Shown here: positions 11,283-26,640 of the stretch, piece by piece
How the letters are laid out: every line of letters begins with the position of its first letter
How positions within the stretch are numbered: the first letter of the stretch is position 1
From: Pagrus major
Taxonomy: Eukaryota > Chordata > Actinopteri > Spariformes > Sparidae
Assembly: GCF_040436345.1 (NCBI RefSeq)
Contig: NC_133221.1
Coordinates: 32,671,589-32,735,588, forward strand
Length of the DNA: 64,000 nucleotides
Direction of reading: 5' to 3'
Notes under the pieces: model-generated
The model's input: the letters and a program-made list of their open reading frames with translations, nothing else
The model's database searches: none
Told to the model about the DNA's origin: nothing
Translations under genes and position numbers: made by a program

Positions 11283-12830
11283 TGTCGTGCCAAAAAGTGA
11301 TCGTCTGCCAGAATCTGATTTGTGGCCGCGGGAGCGCGCACAGCAGCCCGTTGAGCGGTAGCGCTATTAAACGTCTGCTTTTCTTTGGATTAAACGGTCA
11401 TAATGTGCATATACACACACACTTACCACACATTATCACAACTGTGGCCAAAAGAAGTGTAGTTTGTAGCGAACTAAGGCATGGCAATTACGTGATAGAC
11501 ACGTCTCTACAGTATGTTTGATTTAACAGCCAGAGCACTATATATCAGAGTTTACGCCACACAGTGACGCCTCCTTTGTTAAGCTTTCCTCCGAGTCCAA
11601 GTTACAACGTGTTTTCAATAAAGTAATGGTCACTTTTGCAATGATCCTTCCTCTGCATTGTTTTTTACCTGATCTGGGCCCTATAGTATTTGCTTCCCAT
11701 GTTTGGATGTGTTTTGTGCCTAATATTGTTTATGCCTAAAATACAGTTTTCACCTGCCAAAAATTGATTGGAGCCCAAATGGTGATTTCTGCCTAAAAAT
11801 GACTTTATCTCAGTCAAGAGCTTCATAAAATAGACACTAAAGCTCACAGGACCATGTGGAACTCCTTTAAAGGACCATTACAACACAAAATGTGCTTTTT
11901 CACTTGCCAAAAATTGATTGGAGGCCAAATGCAGTTACTGAATGGTGATTTCTGCCTAAAAATGACTTTATCTCAGTCAAGAGCTTCATAATATAAACCC
12001 TCGAGCTCACAGGACCATGTGGAACTCTTTTAAAGGACCATTACAACACAAAATGTGCTTTTTCACCTGCCAAAAATTGATTGGAGGCCAAATGCAGTTA
12101 CTGAATGGTGATTTCTGGCTAAAAATGACTTGATCTCATTCAAGAGCTTCATAATATAGACACTAAAGCTCACAGGGCCATGTGGAACTCCTTTAAAGGA
12201 CCATTACAACACAAAATGTGCTTTTTCACCTGCCAAAAATTGATTGGAGGCCAAATGCAGTTACTGAATGGTGATTTCTGGCTAAAAATGACTTGATCTC
12301 ATTCAAGAGCTTCATAATATAAACCCTCGAGCTCACAGGACCATGTGGAACTCTTTTAAAGGACCATTACAACACAAAATGTGCTTTTTCACCTGCCAAA
12401 AATTGATTGGAGGCCAAATGCAGTTACTGAATGGTGATTTCTGCCTAAAAATGACTTGATCTCATTCAAGAGCTTCATAATATAAACCCTAGAGCTCACA
12501 GGACAGTGTGGAACCCTTTTAAAGGACCATTACAACATAAAATGGGCCTATTCACCTGCAAAAAAATGATTGGAGGCTATTAATTTGCTAATGAAAAGTG
12601 TTTTCTCGCCTAAAATGACTTTCTATTACTCAACAGAGCAATATTAAGATCATTATAGATTAACCATAGTACCCTCTGGAAATTGTGTAAAGGGCCAATG
12701 CATACAAAATGCAGTTTTTTACTTGCCAAAAATTGATTCCTGCTCCAAATGTTATACTTAAAATGGTTTTCTGCCACGATGTCTTCATGTAACTTTAGAG
12801 TCATATTTACCTGATTATATCTGCACACAT
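11283..12830. repeat. Left inverted terminal repeat with 163-bp tandem array
   Basis: About 410 bp of unique terminal sequence (11283-11690, an inverted match to 24008-24415) is followed by a tandem array. The marker GCAGTTACTG recurs at 11931, 12094, 12257 and 12420, spacing exactly 163 bp. A diverged unit precedes these, and decayed units run to about 12830. Units carry either CACTAAAGCTCAC or CCTCGAGCTCAC at the same place, giving two subtypes. Confidence 0.9.
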
Positions 12831-12950
12831 ATTATAATCTGCACGCATCAAAATCTGCACACATATACAATTTTGCACACATATGTGCACACATATACAA
12901 ATCTGCTAACACATCCAAATCTGCACACATTGTGCATCCAATGCGCACAA
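12831..12950. repeat. Irregular CTGCACACAT-type repeat
   Basis: CTGCACACAT, TTGCACACAT and GTGCACACAT recur seven or so times at about 15-25-base spacing between the left terminal array and the transposase promoter region. It is not clean enough to be a microsatellite and has no counterpart at the right side. Confidence 0.6.
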
Positions 12951-13284
12951 GTGACCCGTGCAGAATTTGATATAACTTTGTTGTAAAAATCAAGGTTTCC
13001 TCTAGGCTATGTCATTGAAAATAAAAGCCGCTACACCTTCAGAATGATTTTTTTTCTTCTAAATGTTAAAACAATGTAAAGCTTGTCTTCCACTACCAGC
13101 TCCATCTCTAAGGCTCTGTTAGTAATAAACACAAATAGGCTACAAATGTACATGTACAAATGTACACATTGGCCTCACAGTGACCTCCAATCAAGATTGA
13201 CACGTGGCTCGTGTATGCACTGTAATTAAAATGCCACAGCTCACGGCGTGAGCCCCCCACCCCCACCACCGTGATCTTGCGCGC

Positions 13285-13285
<1 letters not shown>

Positions 13286-13323
<38 letters not shown>
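13286..13323. repeat. 38-base poly-C tract upstream of the transposase start
   Basis: An uninterrupted run of 38 C lies 87 bases before the ATG at 13411; the minus strand is poly-G. It may be promoter or 5' UTR sequence of the transposase. Such tracts are unstable and assembly lengths are unreliable. Confidence 0.95.
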
Positions 13324-13325
<2 letters not shown>

Positions 13326-13410
13326 CGGTCACACCACTCTCGCCGCCAAGAAAAATCCAGGAGGAAACACCTGACATCTCGGAGTTTTATCTGTACAAGT
13401 TGTTGTCGCT

Positions 13411-16400
13411 ATGGATCCCACTCTGTTTGAGCAGATACTCGCTTTCAAAAAGGATGGAACTTTCCCGGTTGGTATGACAGTAACCCAAAAAAGTAATTTT
13501 CACCGAAAGACTAAGAACTTTGAAGTGCAAGGTGAGTATAATGTACCCTTTACATTGTGCATCATAAATAGTCCCATTTAAATACACCTGTTGACCCCCC
13601 CAAAATTTTAATGTTTAATTTTATTGTACATAGCCTACATTTTTAATTGAATTAAGTTTAGATTAAAAGATAAGACAGCATACTGTAGGCTATTGCTGCC
13701 AGTCAGGGGAAAAAATGGATTATACCATTATACCACATTATACCAGCGGCCTTAGACATCTGGGGGCCCGTTTCAATTTTTCATATGAGGCCCTACCCTG
13801 TTGAACATAAAATTATTTGCCAGCTATGGCACATAGCTGGCAAATAATTTTATGGTTCGCATCAGCTTTGTTTTATGGTTCGCTGATGCTTTAAACCTTG
13901 AAAGGACGTAATAAACGCACTATGCACTCCAGGTTTGCGCAACACATTGAGTGTTAGGCTAGCAGAAAAAACGAGGACTGAAGTTGGTTTTCGTCAAAAC
14001 AAAATCATTATGACATTTTCAGACATGAACAGGAATCTTAATCAGAAACTACAGGCTTTATCAATATTCTGAATTTAAATTGGCAACTAAAGTAATGAGA
14101 GCAAAGTGCTCAGCGCTATTTCAGCACCACGGTGCTGCGTTGCTGGAGCAGCCAGCTGTCTCCTCCATTATTACAGTAAAATCTGCCAATAATATCAAAT
14201 TTTAGTTGTGCTCTTGCTTTTATTTCTCTGGTAAGTTAGGACGTAGCCTACTCATAGATCGCCTGTTTGGAGGCATTTTAACCCCACGAAGAAAAAAGAA
14301 AAGAGGAGGAAAGTGATTGACAGACGTCAATCATCAGGTTGCGCACGTCAGGAGGAAAGCAGGAAAAACTAAAGGACATTAGAAACACTAAGAGAAGAGG
14401 AATAATACTGGGAGAAGGAAAACCAGGGTCTATTGATAGTTTGCGGGCCGTTTTCACGCTTTTATTGATATTTCCTGCCGCATTATTAATTAGGAGCGAG
14501 TAGTAGCCTCCGGTGGCATGATACACGCACTGGCAGCTGGGGGCCCACCTATAGGCGGCCTTACCTATGTTTCAACCGTTTCAATTGAAACGGGCCCCAG
14601 CCACCAGGGGGGCCCCAGCTGCCAGCCACCAAGTAAAAGACAGTACAATAATTCATCACCTAGGTTTCACCTTAACATACACACACAGGCCTACTGTACA
14701 TCCACCGCCACACACGCAAACAGCTCTGTCTACCGGTCACACACCCGTGATCCGCACTGATGCGCGTATCATGCCACACGCGATGGTACAGTAATCGCTC
14801 CTAGGCTGAAAACGGCCCGCAAACTATCAATAGACCCTGGTTTTCCTTCTCCCACTATTATTCCTTTTCTCTTAGTATTTCTAATGTCCTTTTGTTTTTC
14901 CTGCTTTCCTCCTGACGTGCGCTACCTGATGATTGACGTCTGTCAATCACTTTCCTCCTCTTTTCTTTTTTTCTTCGGGTTAAAATGCCTCTAAACAGAC
15001 GATCTGTCAGTACGTCCTAACTTAACAGAGAAATAAAACACAGCAAGAGCACAACTAAAATGTGACATTATTCTCAGTTTATTTACAGATTGTAATAATG
15101 GAGGAGACAGCTGTCTGTCTGCCTCCAGTGGCTGCTCCAGCAGCGCAGCACCGACAGCGTCTGTAGACGGCCGTCTGTCCGCATGTCTCGACCTTTCCTT
15201 GTCCGTGGTCGTGGTGCTGAAATAACGCGGAGCACTTTGCCCTCATTATTTTTTTATGTCAATTTAAATTCAGAATATTGTTAAAGCATGTAGTTTTTGA
15301 TGAAAACCAACTTCAGTCCTCGTTTTTTCTGTTAAGTCCTGGTTTCCTGCCCTGATAGTGATTTTACGCGTACCTGGGATGCATGGATAGTGCGTTTATT
15401 GCGTCCATTCAGGGAAGCATCAGCGACACATGGGCACATAGCTGGCAAATAATTTTATGTTTAACAGGATAGGGCCTCATATGAAATATTGAAACGGGCT
15501 GGGGCCCGTTTCAATTGAAACGGTTGAAACATAGGATTCCGTTTGTTTGCCTGGCGAGGCAGCAATGCCCTGCTGTAAAAAAATTGTACAATTTCTAAGT
15601 ATTATAGTGAAACTGATTCCAATATTATCACTTTCATTAATACTGGCTTACAACTCGGATGTTTTTGACTCATTACAGATGGACAGTTGTACTACTTGCG
15701 GTACAAAGGAACACCTCAAGCACTTAAGGCAAAAGTGGTATGTGGGCAAGAGGAGGCAAACACAGTGTTTGTAGACTTGCATGCAAGCAGTATGGGTGCA
15801 CACTGTGGCCAGAAGAAGACTCGGACTGCAATTTCAAAAAGATTTTACTGGCCTGGCATGTCAGAGGACATAAATCTGTGGGTCAGTATGAACTAATGTT
15901 TCCCATCACACAACATTCCCTTTATTTTAGAAATTGTCTGTTAATGCTACACTCTAAACATTTACATGGTGTAGAAATGAAAACGTGCTTTTATGGCATT
16001 GTAATACTTTGTTCATTGGTTGTTGTTATCAGGTGAAGCAGTGTACTGCATGCCAGGCCAGCAGTGCTGTCATTAAGCAGGAGGTGGAATACACACCAAT
16101 AAAGGTAAGAAAGAATTTTTGTTTTTGTTTCATCTTTTCCTTTTACACAAAAAATTATAATTAACAGTAATTTCACTGGAAATATGAAACACATTTAATG
16201 AGTTATATTGTCTTTGTTATAGGTCAGCACACCATTTGAGCTCATTGGGATGGACCTAATAGGAAAGCTTAAAACCACCACAGCAGACAACCAGTACATC
16301 TGTGTACTGATTGATTATATGACAAAGTGGCCCCAGGCATACGCCATCAAAAACAAATCAGCAGAAGAAGTCACCCAATGCATTTTAAAGTTTGTTTACC

Positions 16401-19400
16401 AGTTCGAATGTCCCAAGAGGATTTTAACAGATCAAGGCCGGGAGTTTGTTAATGAAGTATGTATGAAGAACTACATGAAATAAATATACATAACAAACAT
16501 CTAATGCAAACATAACTTTGGAAATGGCTTATTTTACTCTTAAATAAATGTTCAGATATCATAGTCATATCTTATTCCATCTATGCATTTTTTACATTTA
16601 CTGTCATTATTTATCCCTAATACAGATGAATCAAAAGGTCTGCGGAATTTTGGGGATCAAAAGAAGTCTTTGCTCACCCTATCATCCGCAGACCAATGGC
16701 CTTGTGGAAAGGATGAATGGGACCATCCAGAGGTATGTCTATTTTAACATGTAGAAATAATTTTGAACTTCATATTTAAAAAAAAAAAAACAAGCACATA
16801 TAGGACTTAAAAAGGAGTGCTCTATTATTTTTCTTTTTTTCTAGGGCACTGTCCAAATTGGTCAAGGAAAGGCCCGAAACTTGGGACACACATTTGGATG
16901 CTGTCATGTTTGGCCTGAGGACCAAATGCCAAATGACAACCAAATATTCCCCATACTATTTAATGTTTGGTAGAGAGGCGAGATACCCCTCCCAAATACC
17001 TGAACAGTACAGGGTGAGTTGCACTCTGTATAAACAAACTAAACTAACTATAGTCATAATGTAACATTACAACAACACTTTGTGTGTTAGTGCTTCAATT
17101 TAATTGTGAAATTTTTATAGGTGGATAGCAGTGTTGAGGACAACCTCTCTGTTGAGGAGGTTACAGAGGGCATCCTCAAACTGGATGATGCACTTCAGAG
17201 TGCCATTCAAAACACTAAACCTAAAAAAAAAACAAAAGGCAAAAAACCCACTCCTCAGTTAAAGGTGGGGATGAAAGTTATGAGGAAGAACGTGAGGAGC
17301 CAGCAGAGGAAAGGGGGTAAATTGGACCCCACTTACCTTGGACCCTACACGATTGTGGCCATACAAGGGAAAAGTGTGGACCTCCTGGACAGCCATGGAG
17401 TGACTGTACCTAAAATAAATACAGATCACTTGGTTGTTTTTACAGAGGAAAAACCAAGAGTTCCCCACAAACTCCCACCCACCACCCCCTCCTCGGCTGT
17501 CCCATCCACCACCTCCTCCTCTGCTGCTCCACCCACCACCCCCTCCTCGGCTGTCCCATCCACCACCCCCTCCTCGGCTGTCCCATCCACCACCTCCACC
17601 TCGGCTGTCCCATCCACCACCTCCTCCTCTGCTGCTCCACCCACCACCTCCACCTCTGCTGCTCCACCCACCACCCCCTCCTCGGCTGTCCCATCCACCA
17701 CCTCCTCCTCTGCTGCTCCACCCACCACCTCCACCTCTACTGTTCCACCCACCACCTCCTCCTCTGCTGCTCCACCCACCACCCCCTCCTCGGCTGTCCC
17801 ATCCACCACCCCCTCCTCGGCTGTCCCATCCACCACCTCCACCTCGGCTGTCCCATCCACCACCTCCTCCTCTACTGTTCCACCCACCACCTCCTCCTCT
17901 GCTGTCCCATCCACCACCTCCTCCTCGGCTGTCCCATCCACCACCTCCTCCTCTACTGTTCCACCCACCACCTCCTCCTCTGCTGCTCCACCCACCACCC
18001 CCTCCTCGGCTGTCCCATCCACCACCTCCACCTCGGCTGTCCCATCCACCACCTCCACCTCGGCTGTCCCATCCACCACCTCCTCCTCTACTGTTCCACC
18101 CACTACCTCCTCCTCTGCTGCTCCACCCACCACCCCCTCCTCGGCTGTCCCATCCACCACCTCCACCTCTGCTGCTCCACCCACCACCCCCTCTGCTGTC
18201 CCACCCACCTCATCCTCTGCTGTTCCACCCACCTCCTCCACCTCGGCTGTCCCATCCACCACCTCCTCCTCGGCTGTCCCATCCACCACCTCCTCCTCTA
18301 CTGTTCCACCCACCACCTCCTCCTCTGCTGCTCCACCCACCACCCCCTCCTCGGCTGTCCCATCCACCACCTCCACCTCGGCTGTCCCATCCACCACCTC
18401 CTCCTCTACTGTTCCACCCACTACCTCCTCCTCTGCTGCTCCATCCACCACCCCCTCCTCGGCTGTCCCATCCACCACCTCCACCTCGGCTGTCACCTCC
18501 TCCTCTACTGTTCCACCCACTACCTCCTCCTCTGCTGCTCCACCCACCACCCCCTCCTCGGCTGTCCCATCCACCACCTCCACCTCTGCTGCTCCACCCA
18601 CCACCCCCTCTGCTGTCCCACCCACCTCATCCTCTGCTGTTCCACCCACCTCCTCCTCATCGGCTGTCCCACCCACCACAACCTCCTCAGGGCAAAGGGC
18701 CTCTGCCCTTTCAGGTTAGCTGCCTGCCTCACATCCACAAACTCCTCAGCAAGCACCTTTTTGATAAATGTATTCACTTTTATTAACTTCACTTGCAGTT
18801 TTAAATGTTCAGGGTGAAAATTTTATGGGTGGGCTCCGGTCTGCTAAATATTTATAATCAGTCATAACAACTCAGAGGATTTCGCAAATAAAGATGACAG
18901 TAAAATACAGACATAAATTGTGAATTTAGTGATGAGTTAAAAGTTCTGCTGAATATTTTCCATCAGAAAACTTGAAATAGCCTGGAAGTCGAATACACAT
19001 CAGAGTAATCCAAATTTAAACAATTGTAATGTATTACACCCTTAATAGCCTATATCATGAATAGAAAAACAACATTTTTGTGTACAAAAACATGTTATTC
19101 AATAAGCTTAGCATTTGAGCAAATGTATTTTGTATCTCAAGTGTATTTTATAAGTCCTCACAGAATGTAATTCTACAACTTTAAAACTTACTTTTATAGA
19201 TGTGAAAGACGCATGGGAGGGGAAGAGGGATTATGTCCTCTTTTCCAAAATTGGCCCATATAAAATCTTCTTTGGGGATATTTACAACACTGGGCCACAA
19301 AGGGAGTTTGAAAGTGAGGTGAGGAGTTTTTTTTTCTTTTGAAATGGTTTCTGTATTGAGCATACCTTTAAGTTAGGCACAGTCATTTTTAATTATTTTT

Positions 19401-20388
19401 TTGACATGCAAAATATGTTTTGAACATTTTCTTTTTAAATTACAGGTTATCAATGCATATCTGACCCTGCTTGTCAAAAAATATAATGATGAGAACACAG
19501 ACAAGGCGTTTGTATTGGACTCATTTGAAATCACCCGCATTTGGGAGGGACAGAAACCCAAAGTTAAGGTAATAAACAATATTATCTCATGTTATTGCAA
19601 TAATTAATACACCAAAATATGCTACTGTATAATCACCAGAATTTTTTGATTTCTTATGTTATCTTGCAGATTGACCCACTGCTATACAATTTCATCGTGG
19701 GTGTTCAGTTTAATTAATAAGATTCAGATAAAAAGTTAAAATCAGTTAAAAAAGGATGTGATGTGTTTAATTTCATATATTTCATGATGCTTCATTTGAG
19801 TAAGTTAAAAATAAGTGAGTCAAATGGCAGTACCGCCATCTACTGGCCGATTTTGGTTCAGCGGCTAGGCTTTGTCAATCTTGAATAAAACCTTTATGCA
19901 GGAAGTGACAGAAAAGCAACAACAAAGAAGTTCAGAGCAGCACATTTGTCAGCTTCTAGCTATGACTAGCCACTCCAGCATACATCTTCGAGTTGCATCG
20001 TCGGTACGTGTTGTTTACATGTTAATTTACGGTTATATGCTTGAGCCTTATGTGGCAGAATATTACCGGTACATTGTGTACTTATTTGTGTTATGTGTTT
20101 ACATGTATTTAGCCTACTTTGAGTGAGCTATTTAGTTAGTCATGCTAGGCTTTGGTAAATGTTTATTTTATGGTTTATGCATCTCCATAAATGCAATATT
20201 CATGACTGTATTATTTTGTCTATCTCTTTTAGTTTCACACTTTACTTCATCAATAAAACTGGCAAAAGGAATACCCAGTGTGTTGTTTGGAGTGAAGAGT
20301 TTAGCTGCCTGTCAACACATGCATGCTACACATTGAGGACAGAACAGTGGGTATCGTAAACGAGGGTCATCACTGGATGCTGGTGGTA

Positions 20389-20425
<37 letters not shown>

Positions 20426-21955
20426 ATGGTGAATATGCAGTCTGCATAGTATTGATGAAGAACTTTAACGCTACTCTTACAGTATATTTATTAATTTTTA
20501 ACTCTATATTTAGGTGATAACTGTAGATTAACACGTGTCATATAATATAAACTGTGAAGATTAACATGTATCATAGAATATAATATATGTAGATTGACAC
20601 GTGTCATAGTGTGAATTCTTCTTTGACACTTTAAGTACATTAGGTTAAAAATCATAGACAGCAAAGTAAAATCTGTGTATAAGAGTGAAGTAGACATAAA
20701 TACATTTTACTTGCGACACAGTGCTGTATTCCAATAAAAATGTGGTTTGAAACTGTAAGAAACTTTGCATATTTTGGTGTTATCAAATTTTTAATGACAG
20801 TGATGCAATGGACATTTAAAATGTTCATTGTATTAAATGACTTTTCAAGTAACGTTGCACCAATTTTTACTACATATGATATGTATTTGTCTTTTAGATC
20901 ATTCATGAGACACAGGGGGCTAAATCCCTCAAGATGGGCATGTGAGACCATGCCCCACCCAATCCAAAATGATGCAACGTCCTGTGGGGCCTATGCATTG
21001 AAGGTATACAGTATGATTAAGCATACTATAAGAATTTGAATGTTTAATCACAAGCAGCAAAACCTCTTGGGTCATCAAAATAGCAAGTTTAATTGATAAT
21101 GTGCACATGGCTATTGATGATTTGATGTAGTCAATCTAGAAACATTTACTAGAGACGTCTGAAAGTTGTGTACAACTCACATTAACTCCATCATTGATTA
21201 GATGTTATAAACTCTGAACTTTGCCTTAAGTGTTTGATGTTACACAAAAACATGTTTAATAACCATGCATGGATGCAAAGGCAGTCAAATTTTACATGCA
21301 TGGGTTGCTTTAATTAATTAAAATTACACAAAGATTAAAGCTAATGTTGATGTTGGGCATTGTACAGTTCAATGAAATTCAAATAATTATTTTAGGATTA
21401 CTGTTCCTTCCCATGATAAATACATTCTTGCATCTTTTATTCACAGTTTGCTGAGTGCATCTTGGGTGGACTGCCCTTGCAGTTTGACAACTCCACTACA
21501 GGTGTCAACCATATAAGAGAGGGCATTGCAGTCTTTCTTCATGAGAACACAGGTTATTCTTTTTTCTTACATTTTAAAATTAAGATATATTAGGCTCATT
21601 TGCTCTGACAAACATTACTCATAGTTAAGAAAATTATGTTTATTCCATGTTTTTGCAGATGACTTGTCAAACCTCTGTCACATCTGTGGGGAGCTGGATG
21701 GGGACACCAATTGGGTAACTGCTTATGTTTTCTTTGTCCTTCTTAAGCTTTTTTTGTTTTTTTTGGCTAAACATCATTTCAAATTTCATGAGAAAATGAA
21801 TACACAAAGCAAAAAACATTTTAGTGTTTAATATTGTAAATGTCTAATAATTTCAGATTGGCTGTGACATGTGCCCACGGTGGTACCATAGCACATGTAC
21901 AAAGAAGCCAGGCAGAGGAAAAAAGAAGACATTTGTTTGTGCAGCATGCCAGTAG
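13411..21955 (+). CDS. Ginger-like transposase: integrase + Ser/Thr/Pro-rich linker + Ulp1 protease + PHD finger (spliced)
   Basis: Exons I could join in phase: 13411-13531, 15679-15881, 16033-16104, 16223-16456, 16626-16732, 16845-17013, 17121-18714, 19200-19318, 19446-19568 (914 codons, all GT-AG). They continue less certainly with 19670-19700, 20348-20385, 20898-21003, 21447-21552, 21659-21714 and 21857-21955 (TAG stop). Domain order: zinc-binding HX6H...CX2C (DLHASSMGAHCG, QCTACQ); rve core with D (GMDLIG), D (TDQGREF) and E (GLVERMN), the last two 35 residues apart; SPYYLMFGR; a C-terminal integrase SH3-like segment (KLDPTYLGPYTI); a roughly 400-residue low-complexity repeat; a C48 protease region; a PHD finger. 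ATG 13411 is chosen because the exon reads openly to a GTGAGT donor and continues into the zinc domain. The protease part may be broken (see findings). Confidence 0.82.
13779..15512. mobile_element. Foldback element nested in transposase intron 1
   Basis: Two inverted arms of about 0.75 kb (13779-14535 and 14747-15512) share GGGCCCGTTTCAAT at their outer ends, then ATGAGGCCCTA, TTGCCAGCTATG, AACGAGGACTGAAG and GGGTCTATTGATAG in mirrored order. The spacer (14536-14746) contains another copy of the end motif CCGTTTCAATTGAAACGG. It lies wholly within the intron between 13531 and 15679, so the host coding sequence is untouched. No transposase is encoded. The class was not identified. Confidence 0.85.
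16223..17013 (+). other. Integrase catalytic core exons (D-35-E)
   Basis: Three exons (16223-16456, 16626-16732, 16845-17013) encode the RNase H-fold strand-transfer core. The first Asp is in GMDLIG, the second in ILTDQGREF, and the Glu in NGLVERMN; with the intron removed, exactly 35 residues separate the second Asp and the Glu. YHPQTNGLVER is typical of gypsy-type integrases. The segment after the core reads TTKYSPYYLMFGREARYP, close to the YPYY-type motif of Ginger and gypsy integrases. All catalytic residues are present and the frame is open, so the core may be functional. Confidence 0.9.
17470..18690 (+). repeat. Coding minisatellite: Ser/Thr/Pro/Ala repeat of the transposase
   Basis: About 1.2 kb built from a degenerate 27- to 30-base unit, CCACCACCTCCTCCTCTGCTG-like. 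In the transposase frame it reads as variants of PTTSSSAVPSTT, a mucin-like disordered linker between the integrase C-terminus and the protease exons. The frame stays open throughout. Other frames also stay open (for example runs of HPPPPP) because of the repeat composition; those are shadows. Copy number is probably polymorphic. Confidence 0.9.
19200..21552 (+). other. Ulp1/C48 SUMO-protease-like exons
   Basis: Exon 19446-19568 encodes a region ending FVLDSFEITRIWEG, like the N-terminal part of Ulp1 domains. 20348-20385 carries VNEGHHWMLV, with the catalytic His followed by Trp. 20898-21003 carries PIQNDATSCGAYALK, with the oxyanion Gln and the catalytic Cys in SCG. 21447-21552 continues FAECILGG. 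The expected exon with the catalytic Asp, usually a DPLG-like motif after the HW box, is not seen; that interval holds a (TG)n run at 20393-20422. The phases of the exons before and after (0 and 2) also do not match, consistent with a missing exon. Confidence 0.7.
20393..20422. repeat. (TG)n microsatellite
   Basis: About 15 TG dinucleotides directly downstream of the exon coding for the protease HW box, in the interval where the catalytic Asp exon would be expected. Confidence 0.95.
21659..21955 (+). other. PHD finger exons at transposase C-terminus
   Basis: Two exons (21659-21714 and 21857-21955) join after TNW to give Cys4-His-Cys3 spacing: CHIC, CDMC, YHSTC and CAAC, followed by Q and TAG. 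PHD fingers commonly bind histone H3 tails, so this may bias target-site choice or chromatin contact; that is inference. The aromatic Trp before GCDMC and the RWYH motif are typical of methyl-lysine readers. Confidence 0.85.
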
Positions 21956-22235
21956 CAAGGGTAGCTACTGGCTGGTAACCCCAATTGTATATAGTTGAAT
22001 TTTGTTATATTTTTTATTGTCTAATGTATATAGTAGTATTTTTGTAGCATGCTGTTAAGACATTTAATGACAGTTCATAGTTCATAGTTAATGTATGTAG
22101 CCTAAGTATGTATATGTATGTAAAAAATAATAATATTTTGTGATGACATGTTTGGAGTGGCTTACTTATTTTAAGATGCTGTTTCTATGGTCATAGGGTA
22201 GGAATATTGTTTTATTGAAGACATTCTTCAGATGA

Positions 22236-24415
22236 TTTTAAGTATCAGATTTGAATGAGATCAAGTCATTTTTAGGCAGAAATCACCATTCAGTAACTGC
22301 ATTTGGCCTCCAATCAATTTTTGGCAGGTGAAAAAGCACATTTTGTGTTGTAATGGTCCTTTAAAGGAGTTCCACATGGCCCTGTGAGCTTTAGTGTCTA
22401 TTTTATGAAGCTCTTGGATGAGATCAAGTCATTTTTAGGCAGAAATCACCATTCAGTAACTGCATTTGGCCTCCAATCAATTTTTGGCAGGTGAAAAAGC
22501 ACATTTTGTGTTGTAATGGTCCTTTAAAAGAGTTCCACATGGTCCTGTGAGCTCGAGGGTTTATATTATGAAGCTCTTGAATGAGATCAAGTCATTTTTA
22601 GCCAGAAATCACCATTCAGTAACTGCATTTGGCCTCCAATCAATTTTTGGCAGGTGAAAAAGCACATTTTGTGTTGTAATGGTCCTTTAAAAGAGTTCCA
22701 CATGGTCCTGTGAGCTCGAGGGTTTATATTATGAAGCTCTTGAATGAGATCAAGTCATTTTTAGCCAGAAATCACCATTCAGTAACTGCATTTGGCCTCC
22801 AATCAATTTTTGGCAGGTGAAAAAGCACATTTTGTGTTGTAATGGTCCTTTAAAGGAGTTCCACATGGCCCTGTGAGCTTTAGTGTCTATATTATGAAGC
22901 TCTTGAATGAGATCAAGTCATTTTTAGCCAGAAATCACCATTCAGTAACTGCATTTGGCCTCCAATCAATTTTTGGCAGGTGAAAAAGCACATTTTGTGT
23001 TGTAATGGTCCTTTAAAGGAGTTCCACATGGTCCTGTGAGCTTTAGTGTCTATATTATGAAGCTCTTGAATGAGATCAAGTCATTTTTAGGCAGAAATCA
23101 CCATTCAGTAACTGCATTTGGCCTCCAATCAATTTTTGGCAGGTGAAAAAGCACATTTTGTGTTGTAATGGTCCTTTAAAAGAGTTCCACATGGTCCTGT
23201 GAGCTCGAGGGTTTATATTATGAAGCTCTTGAATGAGATCAAGTCATTTTTAGCCAGAAATCACCATTCAGTAACTGCATTTGGCCTCCAATCAATTTTT
23301 GGCAGGTGAAAAAGCACATTTTGTGTTGTAATGGTCCTTTAAAAGAGTTCCACATGGCCCTGTGAGCTTTAGTGTCTATATTATGAAGCTCTTGAATGAG
23401 ATCAAGTCATTTTTAGCCAGAAATCACCATTCAGTAACTGCATTTGGCCTCCAATCAATTTTTGGCAGGTGAAAAAGCACATTTTGTGTTGTAATGGTCC
23501 TTTAAAAGAGTTCCACATGGTCCTGTGAGCTCGAGGGTTTATATTATGAAGCTCTTGGATGAGATCAAGTCATTTTTAGCCAGAAATCACCATTCAGTAA
23601 CTGCATTTGGCCTCCAATCAATTTTTGGCAGGTGAAAAAGCACATTTTGTGTTGTAATGGTCCTTTAAAAGAGTTCCACATGGTCCTGTGAGCTCGAGGG
23701 TTTATATTATGAAGCTCTTGGATGAGATCAAGTCATTTTTAGCCAGAAATCACCATTCAGTAACTGCATTTGGCCTCCAATCAATTTTTGGCAGGTGAAA
23801 AAGCACATTTTGTGTTGTAATGGTCCTTTAAAGGAGTTCCACACTGTCCTGTGAGCCTTAGAATTTATATTATGAAGCTCTTGAATGAGATCAAGTCATT
23901 TTTAGGCAGAAATCACCATTTGGGCTCCAATCAATTTTTGGCAGGTGAAAACTGTATTTTAGGCATAAACAATATTAGGCACAAAACACATCCAAACATG
24001 GGAAGCAAATACTATAGGGCCCAGATCAGGTAAAAAACAATGCAGAGGAAGGATCATTGCAAAAGTGACCATTACTTTATTGAAAACACGTTGTAACTTG
24101 GACTCGGAGGAAAGCTTAACAAAGGAGGCGTCACTGTGTGGCGTAAACTCTGATATATAGTGCTCTGGCTGTTAAATCAAACATACTGTAGAGACGTGTC
24201 TATCACGTAATTGCCATGCCTTAGTTCGCTACAAACTACACTTCTTTTGGCCACAGTTGTGATAATGTGTGGTAAGTGTGTGTGTATATGCACATTATGA
24301 CCGTTTAATCCAAAGAAAAGCAGACGTTTAATAGCGCTACCGCTCAACGGGCTGCTGTGCGCGCTCCCTCGGCCACAAATCAGATTCTGGCAGACGATCA
24401 CTTTTTGGCACGACA
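22236..24415. repeat. Right inverted terminal repeat with expanded 163-bp tandem array
   Basis: Inverted counterpart of the left end. The marker CAGTAACTGC recurs at 22291 and then every 163 bp to 23758 (ten copies), followed by an outer diverged unit lacking part of the marker (about 23880-23965) and the unique terminal block. The array is more than twice as long as on the left. The units are nearly identical to each other and to the left ones, implying recent expansion or gene conversion. Confidence 0.92.
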
Positions 24416-26640
24416 CCTGTACGTGGTCTGAAGATAGAGCGTCATGGCAAGCTTTGTCTTTTTCCGGGGGAGTCGCCGGCTCAGCCTAAGGGCTGAATGC
24501 CAATCATATTTACTGATTAAAACATGTAATACTGAACAGTTACAAGGAGGAAAACAACAGAGGCGAAATAAAAAGACGAGGAGGAAAGGTCCGATTCGTT
24601 ACCTAGCAACCAGAAGATTCTTTGTAGCAACATAATGTCTGTTACACTAACGGAAGACAACGCAACACATTTCTATTTCTAAATAAAAGCATTTGTTATT
24701 GTAACCTATTACTATAATTATTAATCTATTGTCAGAGAAAAATATTTACAACAATATGTAGGCTAATGTTTCCATACTATCACATTTATTTTTGTCTGTA
24801 TATGCCTACCGGTATGTGAATCGGGCGCGATCGCGCGCGTGCGTGCGTGCGAGCGAGCGAGCGAGCGAGAGAAAGAAAGGAGACACCGGGCGTTCACCAG
24901 CAAAAACTGAACGGTTAGAAATGAAAAGAGGGAAATCACAGAATACAGAATATGTCCAGGAGACTCATCAGGACGTGATGTAGGAAGGATCATGTTACCC
25001 TGGGTTCAAAGATGAGCCAGAACTCCAGTATAAAGTTTTAAGACAACACTTGTTTCTTTATTTATACAAAAGTTATATTTAAATCTATTTATTTATTGGC
25101 ACATGTAAAAGGAGCAATAATGATTAAAACATCTCCTCTAATGATCAGGATACAGCCGGCCTGGCTCCCTCGGGCTTACTGCGAGTGAGAGAGGGGATAG
25201 ACAAAACAGTGATTTATAACATTACACACACGCACCTGGCAGTTACTATAACACGGCACCTCTATAGAGCAACCAAACACTGCACACGCTCAAATGCAAC
25301 TCCTGCCGGTGTACACAGCAAACCCCTAAGCCCCTCGAGTTAAGGCAGACTGAGCACGCTTGGAGATGGAAGCCGACTTAACATGGTCAATAGGTGGGAG
25401 AGTGGTAAAACAAACAAAACAAAACAAAAACAAACAAACAAACAAAATAAATGATGGCCCAGCTGAACAGCTCCGCTCTGTGTAACTTAACACGAGGCCA
25501 TCAAGGAGCACAATCCTGCTCCGCGGTAGCTGCTCAACTGAACACATCAACTAAACCACAAAGAAGAGGAAAAAGGAACAGCAGTCAGGCCATGCACAGC
25601 TGTTCCTCATGCACCTACAACACAAAACAAATACTGCTCACAAACAAACATTTAGCAAGCAAGCCATGCAACATACAAGCTATAAAACATCCATCATGCA
25701 ATATTCCAATACAGACAACACATGGAATAAAATTAATTATGTTACCATACGACTGTCACAGGGTGCACACACACCGATCTGACCGACCCTTGTTGGCTCG
25801 CTTCCCTCCTGTAACTGTTTCAGTGACAACAAAAATGCAATATGGTCAGCATCAACATATTCACACACGCATATGCTGGGGAAACAGTGGACACTTTATT
25901 ATGCCTAGCAATCAACATACCTCCTGTTCACCAGCTCATTCCTACCCAGGAGCCCAACCTGCTCCGTGTTTCAGTGTATGCGCTGGGCACTTGTTGTGCA
26001 GTTTTAACATACAGGAACGGCACCTAACAACTTGAAACACACAACCACACAAATGTACTAATGTCGTGTGCCTCTACATATATTCACAATTTGCCAATTC
26101 TCAGTATGGTCTGAAAACTCTAAAAACTTACGATCGGCAGTGCCCTCACACAATCCTCCTCACCAGCCTGCAGCAAATCAGCCGGTGAGGACCTCAGACA
26201 GACAGCTGCCTTTCTGCCTGATTAGGGCCTCCTTAAATCTGCCTGTCCGAATTTATAACCCCGCCTCCCTCCAGCGGCTACAATCAGATGGTGGCTCAGG
26301 TAGCGATGAGGAAAATATATATGGCTGCACATCTGTCAGCTGCACTGTAAGCAGGTGTAGCCTACACCATGCAGACATTTCTCAAACTTTATTTTGGAGG
26401 CTCAGGACAGACTAGATCAATGCTCCCCAATTCTCATTATGGAGCATTGCGAGGCACCTTCGCGCTGCAGGACATCTCTGATCTCCGAGTGTCTTCCCAC
26501 TCTCAAAAGGTTCGCAGATTAGATCTGCATAAGGCTGAAGTGCGGTCATTCTACTTGGAGAGTCTGCGATTTCAACTTTCCGGCTCACTTCCTACCCCTC
26601 TGACTCCGCAAAAATCTCCCAGCATTCCCCGAATTTTCAG
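24416..26640. other. No gene recognised
   Basis: Contains a CGTG/CGAG low-complexity run (24826-24868), an AAACA-rich run (about 25410-25447) and a 194-codon open frame (25451-26035) whose composition (Ser, His, Gln, Cys) and lack of any domain suggest chance. TATA-like TTATAACCCCGCC near 26252 could belong to an old LTR or promoter, but no paired repeat was found. Confidence 0.45.
24826..24868. repeat. GCGC/GCGT/GCGA low-complexity run
   Basis: Alternating purine-pyrimidine CGCGCGTGCGTGCGTGCG followed by (AGCG)n and a GAAAG tail; possible Z-DNA-forming tract. Confidence 0.85.

Follow-up and report, generated by a model that had tools for sequence, protein, structure and literature searches.

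Structure, damage and insertion junctions of a 13-kb Ginger1-like transposon in Pagrus major

Ginger elements are relatives of retroviral integrases. According to their description by Bao, Kapitonov and Jurka in 2010 (PMC2836005), Ginger1 elements span 2.6–7 kb, carry terminal inverted repeats (TIRs) of 40–270 bp, produce CCGG or CCGT duplications and contain 0–4 introns. The way in which Ginger elements exit from the old site is stated to be unknown (PMC2836005). Ginger2/TDD elements are likewise integrase-type DNA transposons with TGTNR ends, and the integrase is interrupted by several introns, as in our element, both in Ginger1-5_HM and in vertebrate GIN1/GIN2, which differ in being fixed host genes. 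GIN2 is a domesticated gene of Ginger origin that occurs in fish, relics of Ginger1 are present in alligator, turtle, coelacanth and frog, and FishTEDB includes Ginger consensus sequences. In the part of the literature that was searched, neither altered CCGG duplications nor TIRs in the kilobase range were found described for Ginger elements.

The element considered here lies in a 64,000-nucleotide stretch of the Pagrus major genome (the window; C7:32671589–32735588 of a 786-Mb, 25-contig assembly), and its copy in the window is designated C7. The original prediction regarded the order in which integrase, Ulp1-type protease and PHD finger are fused, and the element size, as unusual, while granting that related Ginger elements carry such domains. 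The fusion is real but known, since the 2010 paper already lists it for Ginger1-9_HM from Hydra, which belongs to a group characterized by TGTNR termini and by duplication of CCGG or CCGT (PMC2836005). The two elements differ in scale: Ginger1-9_HM has 3,758 bp, a TIR of 120 bp and 2 introns (PMC2836005), against 13.1 kb, ~1.3–1.5 kb and ~14 introns. Besides these three features, 163-bp TIR repeats carrying the terminal motif and a linker coded by a minisatellite go beyond the 2010 description. A further difference from Ginger1-9_HM is that the 4-bp copies at the ends are altered, and the most surprising novelty is that junctions seem to retain bases absent from the target.

Terminal repeats and family assignment

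The boundaries proposed for the element, 11283 and 24415, proved correct, with termini TGTCG...CGACA. The left TIR (11283–12773, plus strand) consists of a unique outer segment of 495 nt followed by about five 163-bp tandem repeats (11778–12577), and the right one (22251–24415, minus strand) of approximately ten such repeats (22251–23920) and a unique outer segment of the same length (23921–24415). The arms are 97% complementary over 1295 nt without gaps and extend to ~1.49 kb if gaps are allowed, their outer segments being identical at 494 of 495 positions. One 163-bp unit (11941–12103) matched the terminal core TGCCAAAAAGTGATCG at 14 of 16 positions, a score reached by none of 2000 shuffles of this unit (three reached 13). 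With up to two mismatches the terminal pattern was registered at 34 genomic places, versus none for the reversed control.

Both ends begin with TGTCG, which agrees with the TGTNR ends of Ginger1, while the TIR of ~1.3–1.5 kb falls outside the published range of ~40–270 bp. Because of this discrepancy we call the element Ginger1-like rather than a strict member of the group. It is probably a DNA transposon of the cut-and-paste type that moved not long ago and has since been damaged. The predicted 13-kb size stands as a span, but it includes a 645-bp insert and a 1.77-kb foldback repeat in intron 1 (13762–15535, no strand assigned), the latter having 99.9–100% identity in both sister copies found on other contigs (C15 and C5). 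Further inverted repeats are nested inside the foldback repeat. No Rfam match at gathering score was found in the window.

Exon chain, number of products and damage to the window copy

All exons lie on the plus strand. Exon 1 (13411–13531) contains the start codon and, ahead of the zinc finger, a stretch showing F-P...F residues; exon 2 (15679–15881) supplies YY and the His-His pair of the H2C2 finger and exon 3 (16033–16104) its Cys-Cys pair. The motif published for this region of Ginger1, upstream of the zinc finger, is YPYY; exons 1–2 here read F-P...F...YY. The integrase core occupies exons 4 (16223–16456; D143, D202) and 5 (16626–16732; E238), and the remainder of the integrase exon 6 (16845–17013). 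Exon 7 (17121–18714) comprises the GPY motif region and a P/S/T-rich linker, with an in-frame stop directly behind its splice donor. The Ulp1-like protease starts in exon 8 (19200–19318, N-terminal part) and continues through exon 9 (19446–19568) and exon 10 (19670–20385), which is split by an insert at 19702–20346 so that the catalytic His region lies beyond it. Downstream follow an exon with Gln and the catalytic Cys in an SCG motif (20898–21003), an exon with the protease end (21447–21552) and two PHD exons (21659–21714 and 21857–21955), the second of which carries the stop codon.

The frame-consistent joining anticipated from the letters was confirmed for nine introns between 13411 and 19670, all of which have GT-AG ends and are in phase, including that from 18714 to 19200; the four exons at 20898–21955 are also in phase through to the stop, and the gene has ~14 introns in total. 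Signature residues expected from the first reading are in place as well: H75, H82, C112 and C115 for HHCC, D143, D202 and E238 with 35 residues between the last two for D-35-E, SCG, and the C4HC3 set of the PHD finger. Pfam recognized Integrase_H2C2 (1.6e-17), rve (2.5e-15), PHD (1e-7) and Peptidase_C48 (4.7e-5) in the window protein, although the first half of the protease taken alone gave no noteworthy match in Pfam or PDB. Among solved integrases the nearest was that of PFV (1e-27, residues 59–313 of the 421-residue query). An H2C2 finger, a DDE core and a GPY/F motif, here GPY in exon 7, are thus combined as in Ginger1, and so is the C-terminal Ulp1 domain (OTU in other cases) with the PHD finger that accompanies it in some elements, although the window copy has its protease disrupted. 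Folding the GPY region from its single sequence gave a model of low confidence (mean pLDDT 52), which was left unused. Searches in viral contigs and prokaryote genomes yielded no confirmed relatives; plasmids gave 17 records, all below 60% identity, with a Wolbachia plasmid protein as the best (29% over 94% of the query) and one of the eight listed annotated as IS481-like.

Reading phase thus supports the integrase, Ulp1 and PHD exons of this Ginger-type element as one putative chain. The idea of a single product holds in so far as the exons share a strand and a consistent phase; the chain of the window copy, however, never reaches a complete protease. The linker is coded by a 27-bp minisatellite (17473–18688, plus strand) of ~45 units, the 44 spacings of which are 27 (39 times), 24 (four times) and 18 bp (once). 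In C7 and C15 the exon-7 donor is followed by GTTAGC, giving an in-frame stop one codon on, so that a separate integrase product is possible. Two products, one with integrase and linker ending at this stop and the other, spliced or separate, with protease and PHD finger, would also agree with the relative C1, which reads ALSG-stop at the same place. We nevertheless consider such a division rather unlikely, since exon 7, 1594 nt long in C7 and 1420 nt in C15, has one and the same exit phase in these two copies, and in C1 a different minisatellite still preserves the open frame; moreover, the typical Ginger1 element is described as coding one protein (PMC2836005). In C5 exon 7 (1176 nt) is out of frame.

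The expectation of a complete protease on this chain failed in the window copy. Its reading is cut at 19701, just ahead of the catalytic His region, by the 645-bp insert (19702–20346, no strand assigned), which has ends TGTTC...GAACA, i.e. of the TG...CA type, and is bordered by the 5-bp duplication GTGGG (19697–19701 and 20347–20351). Both sister copies lack it and are continuous at this site, which represents the empty state. Among the matches listed there were 11 other full-length copies of the insert with 99–100% identity, eight of them forming four same-strand pairs ~6.6 kb apart, and on these grounds we identify it as a solo LTR of an LTR retrotransposon. The second lesion is an AT-rich filler of 88 bp with 33-bp repeats (20519–20606, no strand assigned), replacing the exon with the protease Asp. 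This exon, following that with His, reads LFLDPLGE in C15 and C5 and VFLDPLGE in the relatives C1 and C6; its absence as a feature of the whole family was therefore rejected. The His-Asp-Gln-Cys set, incomplete in the window copy, is present in C15. With the LTR splitting one protease exon and the filler replacing another, the window copy cannot make the whole protein.

Insertion junctions and empty sites

Flanks were read at 32 of the 34 places with the terminal pattern and at one more end of a distant relative, C11; after merging of plain duplicates 29 distinct flanks were left. They comprised CAGG (14), CCGG (7), CCAG (2), CACC (2) and single cases of CCGT, CAGT, ATTA and AAAT. An ordinary duplication of CAGG would put CCTG at the partner end, and CCTG was absent from all 29. 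A at position −5 was found in 10 of 14 CAGG flanks versus one of seven CCGG flanks, so that ACAGG behaves as a unit. Ten pairs of ends could be compared: a direct match was seen in two, which have CCGG at either end, and not in the other eight (C14 agrees at 2 bp only). Direct duplications were rejected for these eight, and targets were settled by empty sites.

For three insertions (C3, C15 and C22) the joined flanks aligned to repeats at other places without interruption, apart from a gap of 4 bp at the junction. CCGG occupied it in 7 of 8 paralogs fetched for C3 (eight junction-spanning matches were listed, two with 94% and six with 83–85% identity), in 11 of 12 for C15 (12 of 38 matches listed) and in all 10 for C22 (10 of 35 listed). 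In all three insertions the target was CCGG, the net gain was 4 bp, and the two 4-bp copies differed. The window copy, which has its left and right flanks from different repeat families, could be assessed from the right side only. CCTGT stands beside its right end (24416–24420, plus strand), and the 4-bp slot was CCTG in none of the eight paralogs fetched for this flank: four had CCGG and four CCAG, the closest of those fetched (L075, 98%) having CCGG, and all eight had A where position 24420 has T. If CCGG is taken as the target, six of the seven readable ends of these four insertions have A instead of C at −3 (CAGG toward the element), and of the five ends at which the target base at −5 was not A three acquired A. 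The left end of C3 shows unchanged CCGG, and that of C22 kept C at −5. Deamination of CCGG would give CTGG or CCAG, not CAGG, and was rejected as the source of the latter. It seems that flank bases travel with the element, or that the ends are altered at insertion.

Junctions that retain bases foreign to the target suggest that cutting takes place beyond the terminal repeats, and they make the question of exit testable. Quite possibly, in our tentative estimate, the element takes along 4–5 bases from its previous site, (A)CAGG, in the form of overhangs annealing to that of the CCGG target, the duplication at the new site being a donor-target hybrid. The integrase would bind the motif at the termini, of which the 163-bp repeats hold further occurrences, cut the element out and join it to a staggered CCGG target. 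The donor-flank overhang of 4–5 nt would stay on the element ends, pair with that of CCGG except for one base and be kept at many junctions; this would also explain the need for a CCGG-like target. The Ulp1 part may strip host proteins or the transposase of SUMO-like tags, and contact with chromatin may be the role of the PHD finger. Tn916-type elements carry along a few donor-flank bases as coupling sequences, which results in a mismatched junction; those elements are bacterial and use a tyrosine recombinase, so that the parallel with (A)CAGG carry-over can only be an analogy.

Alternatively, these bases could have passed from copy to copy through gene conversion once the insertions had taken place. 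The ends of the copies are nearly identical, and CAGG differs from CCGG by one base, within reach of a conversion tract. This explanation nonetheless appears improbable: conversion would be needed at six of the seven readable ends of the four insertions and at three of five ends would have had to extend to base −5, past the CCGG held in common.

The left flank of the window copy, AAAT, joins the middle of another repeat, where there is no CCGG, and this junction perhaps arose through an adjacent deletion. Long inverted repeats are difficult to assemble, and errors at the long palindromic repeat might account for both this odd junction and the 88-bp filler, the more so as different repeat families supply the left and the right flank. 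We consider assembly errors improbable, since the exact TGT terminus is kept at the left end and the filler is cleanly bordered by sequence common to the sisters. A lone end at L024:9486, with flank ATTA, is comparable to the left end of the window copy.

Sister copies, relatives and constraint

In the six of seven integrase exons that could be compared (378 codons) C7 and C15 differ by one nucleotide, and in shared exons C15 and C5 are each at most two bases per domain group off the window copy. The protease of C15 was recognized as Peptidase_C48 (4.1e-12) and as similar to SENP2 (2.6e-7 over residues 8–173 of 176). C15 is without exon 1 and contains ~9.5 kb of nested sequence; C5 is without exons 2–6, where it has an insert, and without the left outer end. 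Since each of the three near-identical copies carries damage, autonomy need not be assumed for any of them. Together they provide a natural experiment on whether movement requires the protease and PHD parts. Domestication of Ginger into a host gene, as with GIN1 and GIN2, has a practically negligible probability despite the intron-rich integrase gene, given the nearly perfect outer TIR identity, the near-identical copies on other contigs and the damaged coding sequence.

Against the ~70% identical relative C1, dN/dS was 0.14/0.85 in the integrase, for which 373 codons in six of seven exons could be compared and C1 has one stop. The protease halves gave 0.12/0.60 and 0.11/0.52, the PHD part 0.26/0.39. 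Fewer exons were comparable in C6, where protease exons gave 0.14/0.38 and 0.07/0.44, and in C11, with values of 0.17/0.76 in the integrase (one stop), 0.22/0.39 in the protease and 0.26/0.69 in the PHD part. Judged by these substitution rates, comparison with relatives shows the protein parts to be under constraint, which is weaker for the PHD part.

C11 (L025–L027, 20.4 kb), which is less closely related, has its integrase, protease and PHD exons arranged in the same sequence and is bordered by CCAG at either end; its catalytic-Cys exon was not found by tblastn. One place in the nested sequence of C15 (L009) shows weak similarity, 31% over 55 residues, to the zinc finger of the integrase. 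The insert within C5 (L013:745–2649) has an open frame that resembles a transposase of the pogo type ending in a PHD-like finger. In a short one of the C4 copies (L019, L033) the flanks on the two sides are inverted repeats of each other at 60 of 60 bases, and this flank recurs ~100 kb away, as a palindromic duplication or an assembly artefact.
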